Shown here: positions 3,388-8,733 of the stretch, piece by piece | Layout: each line of letters begins with the position of its first letter | How positions within the stretch are numbered: the stretch's first letter is position 1 | DNA from: Candidatus Saccharimonadota bacterium | GTDB taxonomy: Bacteria > Patescibacteriota > Saccharimonadia > Saccharimonadales > 2-12-FULL-41-12 | Direction: 5' to 3' | Assembly (NCBI GenBank): GCA_016219345.1 | Contig: JACRNE010000006.1 | Coordinates: 1-35,598, forward strand | DNA: 35,598 bases | The notes under the pieces: model-generated | Told to the model about the DNA's origin: nothing | Seen by the model: only the letters and a program-made list of their open reading frames with translations | The model's database searches: none | Translations under genes and position numbers: made by a program

Positions 3388-3397
3388 CGCTCCGCTA

Positions 3398-3473
3398 ATG
3401 AGACACCCATATCTGGGTTTCTCATCACTCCGGGCAGCAAAATAAATTTGACTGCTCGGGTTGCTCTTCCCAG
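3398..3473 (+). ncRNA. candidate structured RNA element, copy 1 (duplicated intercistronic element)
   Basis: ATGAGACACCC-atatct-GGGTTTCTCAT hairpin followed by GGCAGCAAAATAAATTTGACTGCTCGGGTTGCTCTTCCCAG. Near-identical to the minus-strand sequence 8733-8659. Lies between ssb and rpsR. Confidence 0.65.
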
Positions 3474-8658: not shown

Positions 8659-8733
8659 CTGGGAAGAGCAGCCCAAGCAGTCAAATTTAGTTTGCTGCCT
8701 GGCGCGATGAGAAACCCTGCAAGGGTGTCTCAT
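8659..8733 (-). ncRNA. candidate structured RNA element, copy 2 (duplicated intercistronic element)
   Basis: Minus strand: ATGAGACACCC-ttgca-GGGTTTCTCATCGCGCCAGGCAGCAAACTAAATTTGACTGCTTGGGCTGCTCTTCCCAG; about 64/70 matching positions to copy 1 outside the hairpin loop. Confidence 0.65.

Follow-up and report, generated by a model that had tools for sequence, protein, structure and literature searches.

A dispersed two-hairpin palindromic repeat of Saccharimonadales, probably a non-autonomous mobile element with a folded single-stranded DNA stage

Anatomy and predicted structure of the element in the window

The window, that is the whole 35,598-nucleotide stretch of contig JACRNE010000006.1 from a Candidatus Saccharimonadota bacterium, carries an element of ~71-75 nt between ssb and rpsR and a second copy on the opposite strand beyond ychF, both being members of one dispersed family (Table 1). 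A preliminary description had placed these segments at 3398-3473 (+) and 8659-8733 (-), and both were found there with the spacing it gave, beginning 10 nt after the ssb stop codon and 3 nt after that of ychF and ending some 30 nt short of the following listed ORFs, and with identical hairpin arms around a loop that varies in length and sequence. The anatomy is constant and comprises hairpin 1 (ATGAGACACCC...GGGTTTCTCAT, interrupted by a C.T mismatch), the linker CGCGC, hairpin 2 (with a loop of 5 nt, a bulged A, and a wobble or mismatch in the lower stem) and the tail GGYTGCTCTTCCC. Two occurrences of the tail motif AAATTTGACTGCTYGGG were counted where 0.2 would be expected. A CTTCGC-type micro-repeat or mini-hairpin occupies the 10 nt directly 5' of hairpin 1 in 50 of 175 copies, compared with 6 of 175 control flanks. 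Variants with an additional A/T-rich hairpin in the hairpin-1 loop were seen at two loci (L296, 1956-2023 and 4016-4082; L047, ~1450-1540).

Table 1. Coordinates of element copies and their parts in the window, with further copies named in the text
Feature	Position	Strand	Remarks
Element copy 1	3398..3471	+	Between ssb (ends 3387) and rpsR (starts 3504); 85.8 bits
CGCTCCGCTA, optional 'CTTCGC'-type micro-repeat directly 5' of copy-1 hairpin 1	3388..3397	+	Enriched relative to control flanks
Hairpin 1 of copy 1, ATGAGACACCC/GGGTTTCTCAT, C.T mismatch	3398..3425	+	
Hairpin 2 of copy 1, CCGGGCAGCAAA-ATAAA-TTTGaCTGCTCGG, bulged A	3430..3459	+	
Pyrimidine tail of copy 1, CTCTTCCC	3464..3471	+	Parallel complement of hairpin-1 5' arm; putative third strand
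Element copy 2	8661..8733	-	Lies between the ychF stop codon (8737) and the listed start (8627) of an ABC-transporter ATPase gene; 89.9 bits
Hairpin 1 of copy 2	8707..8733	-	
Hairpin 2 of copy 2	8673..8702	-	
Pyrimidine tail of copy 2, CTCTTCCC	8661..8668	-	
Further copies in the window's genome	C29:3209; C35:4465; C9:5224; end of contig C22		Found by BLAST; C22 copy cut by contig end
Antisense copies in the spc operon (L094)	244-313; 1367-1438; 2028-2097; 2440-2503	all -	

The predicted secondary structure was examined in an alignment of 92 distinct copies, in which standard pairs fill 96.1% of cells, double (compensatory) changes occur at 19 of the 22 pairs of the two hairpins, and the covariation score is 0.481, compared with at most 0.111 when the pairing partners are slid. 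Because this alignment was fitted to the covariance model, a nine-sequence MAFFT alignment serves as the independent check, and it gave 0.350 against at most 0.128. The two predicted hairpins are therefore strongly supported by covariation, bearing out the earlier claim of a structured and conserved element. The GCAGC/GYTGC helix proposed at the same time did not survive, as it has no covariation, zero double changes and a score no better than shuffles; the supported hairpin 2 is GCAG-CAAA/TTTG-a-CTGC, extended by CYGG/CYGG. A search of Rfam 15 at gathering and at relaxed thresholds returned nothing over the element, in keeping with the preliminary description, in which no known riboswitch or ribosomal-protein leader was recognised, and membership of a known RNA family was rejected. 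Nor is the element an ordinary terminator, a T tract following the hairpin in just five of 176 copies, again in line with the preliminary description.

The pyrimidine tail is conserved and varies in step with the hairpin-1 5' arm, the two running parallel. Arms of the form GAGAC(A)n are matched by tails of the form CTC(T)n+1, the T-run equalling the A-run plus one in 122 of 130 copies (n=1 in 40, n=2 in 4, n=3 in 61, n=4 in 17), and where the arm is G-rich the tail again follows in parallel (arm/tail GAGAGGGG/CTCTCCCC, GAGGGGAGA/CTCCCCTCT and GAGAGGAGGG/CTCACCTCCC). Several arm/tail types are present within single genomes (G004, G010). Parallel complementarity of this kind cannot be Watson-Crick pairing, and it matches the requirement for a third, pyrimidine strand lying in the hairpin-1 major groove. 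The geometry, in which the tail would exit at the base of hairpin 2 and run up hairpin 1, is feasible. One interpretation is that the tail forms the third strand of an intrastrand triplex on hairpin 1, in which case its covariation with the arm would be a triple-helix signature that is rare in natural sequences. The arm types also differ in strand: in the positive-GC-skew regions of two G010 contigs (C3 and C1; L285-L323), the minus strand carries almost all A-type copies and the plus strand most copies with G-rich arms.

The mismatches in the hairpins bear on the nucleic acid in which pairing has been kept. With one column excluded, 22 G.T and 33 A.C mismatches were counted among 1,928 cells, whereas the acceptor stems of 37 tRNAs from one carrier genome had 13 and 0 respectively (p = 7e-5). 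A selected RNA strand is expected to tolerate G.U but not A.C. The equal rarity of the two in the element suggests that pairing was selected as DNA, or in both strands, rather than in one RNA strand. Equal mismatches also arise by neutral decay of old copies, and the symmetry is evidence against a shared RNA function and no proof of a DNA function. A reading of the strand from wobble was rejected, since in hairpin 1 alone the given strand shows an excess of A.C, chiefly from one column, and hairpin 2 leans the opposite way, so that no RNA strand is favoured.

Distribution, orientation and insertion sites

The window's genome (735 kb in 36 contigs) contains at least six copies. A whole-genome BLAST search with copy 1 returned copy 2 at E = 7e-20 together with four further copies (Table 1), and weaker matches were present in C13 and at the end of C3. 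A covariance model built from nine copies was searched against 396 Saccharimonadales genomes and located the element in 122 of them, a per-genome count of 12 in this search meaning at least 12. In a phylum-wide sample one genome, G010, held at least 20 copies, and in that sample the element was confined to Saccharimonadales, with none in ~180 genomes of other Patescibacteria orders. A pattern scan of named genomes gave matches almost exclusively in Saccharibacteria bins. Carriage by phage or plasmid was rejected, as the viral contigs, phage records and plasmid records searched contained no match. The element is thus specific to this order, and in the reduced genomes of Saccharibacteria, which are tiny parasitic bacteria, copy numbers reach 20 or more, with copies lying in essential-gene operons.

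Simple ORF calling around 162 distinct copies placed most of them in intergenic sequence. Between co-directional genes 66 were antisense and 36 sense; a further 36 copies had convergent neighbours and 17 had divergent ones. Five genomes carry a copy at the ssb-rpsR junction, in the sense orientation in three (L001, L066, L124) and antisense in two (L156, L120), and in sister genomes of the same genus or family (G001-G005) the spacer is ordinary and empty. Insertion junctions recur across different families: the alaS 3' end is a target in five genomes, three of which share the left junction, and other recurrent targets are rplK, rpsB-tsf, rplC-rplD and rfbB-rfbC. The spc ribosomal-protein operon of G070 carries four antisense copies, including an in-frame insertion close to the rplE start, within the N terminus of the protein. 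In the ssb-rpsR spacer of G166 (L120, ~2052-2125) a partial older tail adjoins an intact one, which suggests that an element inserted into an element.

A cis-acting structured RNA, whether resembling a leader or riboswitch or acting in mRNA processing or stability, and also spread by duplication, could account for the strong conserved secondary structure and for the intergenic positions, often in ribosomal-protein operons and adjoining ssb, rpsR, alaS and rplK. Such a function would also suit the type-II copies, which prefer one orientation relative to genes (47:21). It is nevertheless quite unlikely given that the ssb-rpsR junction accepts both orientations and is empty in sister genomes, that no consistent gene set is associated with the element, and that G.U is tolerated no more than A.C, unlike in tRNA. 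Of the novel cis-regulatory structured RNA first proposed, the structure and the absence from Rfam stand. The regulatory role is not supported: the mismatch symmetry argues against a selected RNA strand, and a link to ssb-rpsR fails in view of dispersed copies in both orientations, flanking direct repeats and the lack of consistent gene context. This is the REP/MITE-like distribution that the preliminary description had itself set against its reading.

Flanking direct repeats and candidate enzymes

Direct repeats exceeding the 99% null flank 26 of 160 copies, compared with 1.6 expected, and most copies have none. Exact repeats span 16-50 bp (for example 50/50, 48/48, 38/38 and 16/16), and a 36/37 repeat lies at the tpiA start. 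Those at L068, L122 and L163 were discounted, as they involve two tRNA genes and reflect paralogy rather than duplication, leaving ~20 convincing cases. The repeats mostly duplicate the end or the start of a gene, so that the gene stays whole. At four loci (L005, L028, L138, L104), the repeat copies show 12 single differences, scored by hand with the L104 second codon, which is replaced, not counted. All 12 are at the third position of a codon (p = 2e-6 against the 1/3 expected), and the detached copy therefore also looks coding. This pattern is not predicted by a simple decaying duplication and counts against a mobile repeat. Its simplest account may be homologous recombination with insertion-free strains, in which a diverged allele replaced one of the repeats.

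Genes for Y1 (HUH) transposases, encoding Y1_Tnp proteins of about 205-250 aa, were present in 18 of 30 high-copy genomes compared with 3 of 20 zero-copy genomes (p = 0.003). Twenty-eight Y1 loci were scanned; copies were found in two and none closely flanked a Y1 gene, although one copy lay 1.5 kb away, between two Y1 genes. As this is a correlation with copy number without linkage, Y1 was rejected as the linked transposase. One such gene, from a Saccharibacterium (L249, 1300-1917, minus strand), encodes a RAYT-like Y1 transposase of 205 aa and is flanked by recA on one side and a pilB-like gene on the other. Movement of a REP-like element by the RAYT/Y1 transposases of these genomes would agree with the copy-number correlation and with hairpins that carry fixed mismatches, as HUH substrates do. 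It is unlikely, however, since 12 of the 30 high-copy genomes have no Y1 match, copies are not found beside Y1 genes apart from the one described, and the GTAG or CGTC tetranucleotide stands at 0-6% at every hairpin end, about as in control flanks. HUH transposition would also not be expected to leave long direct repeats, and it is not known to make target duplications.

Target-primed reverse transcription produces target duplications of variable length, and a SINE-like retroposed RNA, inserted as an RNA copy by a reverse transcriptase, would thus fit the exact 16 to 50 bp repeats and the few variable bases at both ends of the element. This origin appears very unlikely: RVT_1 genes are not associated with copy number (6 of 30 high-copy and 2 of 20 zero-copy genomes, p = 0.45), reverse transcriptase being rejected as the linked enzyme, and the RNA-type wobble signature is absent. 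Hairpins that are imperfect, with mismatches at fixed places and a bulged nucleotide, together with several copies in the same orientation within one operon, might instead suggest an attC-like site for site-specific recombination or a DNA uptake signal. The integron R' and R'' boxes (GTTRRRY / RYYYAAC) were jointly present in none of 176 copies, however, the neighbours are core operons and not cassettes, and the copies are neither numerous nor short enough for an uptake signal, making this reading extremely improbable. As for a related autonomous transposon, no long form carrying an ORF turned up in the 80 loci located with the 3' half of the element, and no linked transposase was found. DDE transposition gives target duplications of fixed length, and those of IS1202-type elements are long.

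Known repeat families and a proposed route of insertion

The element behaves like REP, RPE or MITE sequences but has neither the tags nor the terminal repeats that mark them. It was tested for REP tags, terminal inverted repeats (mean 5.2, compared with 4.9 in shuffles), attC boxes and a terminator T tract, and all are absent. Like REPs, including the GTAG and CGTC palindromic repeats associated with RAYTs, it is a short, dispersed, mostly intergenic palindrome with Y1 transposases in many carrier genomes, and CGTC repeats likewise lack a flanking transposase (PMC3733652, PMC2817692). Reported REPs, however, are 20-40 bp and come from other phyla (PMC3733652, PMC2817692), whereas this element is ~75 nt with two hairpins, a covarying tail and long flanking direct repeats, and bears no GTAG/CGTC tag. 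Rickettsia palindromic elements (RPE) are also palindromic repeats of a reduced-genome bacterium and are found in frame within genes, of which rplE (L094) provides one clear case here; the present element differs from them in its phylum, in sharing no common sequence tag and in being almost always intergenic. With MITEs it shares small size, non-autonomy, multiple copies and direct repeats at a minority of copies (review, PMC10969869). Target-site duplication as in MITEs is thus present, but the repeats are long and variable instead of short and fixed, and no terminal inverted repeat joins the ends. IS1202-type elements (PMC10132070) resemble it in unusually long target duplications near preferred sites, and differ in having a transposase and terminal inverted repeats; the repeats seen here vary from 16 to 50 bp or more. 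The open-access literature searched describes no dispersed palindromic element for Saccharibacteria.

Since HUH transposition is not known to give duplications, DDE transposition gives fixed lengths and reverse transcription lacks an enzyme here, we favour a non-autonomous mobile palindromic repeat of Saccharimonadales with a folded single-stranded DNA stage, which is the probable identity of the element. Dispersal in many copies and in either orientation, the unoccupied sites of sister genomes, the direct repeats, and the covariation of both hairpins and of the tail with hairpin 1 all speak for it. One DNA strand, when single-stranded during replication, uptake or transposition, would fold into hairpins 1 and 2, with the pyrimidine tail lying on hairpin 1 as a third strand. 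A protein supplied in trans would recognise the folded strand and insert it at a staggered break, and gap filling would then generate direct repeats of variable length. Copies would persist mainly where insertion spares a gene end, hence their position immediately downstream of stop codons or immediately upstream of start codons, and adjacent operons would be affected only secondarily, if at all. Common routes of bacterial transposition do not account for duplications so long and variable. More tentatively, the element could represent a distinct class of bacterial mobile element: single-stranded DNA folded as two hairpins and an intrastrand triplex, recognised by an enzyme whose widely staggered insertion breaks would leave duplications of 16-50 bp or more, and favouring certain junctions within Saccharibacteria core operons; this possibility is doubtful at present. 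Some Saccharibacteria can be cultured with their hosts, which makes both the structure and the route of insertion directly testable.

The family also explains breaks in the assemblies of these genomes and the mis-calling of short ORFs in them. In the window's own assembly (G000), contigs C22 (18167-18193) and C3 (28816-28876) terminate within element copies, as expected because repeats break assembly.
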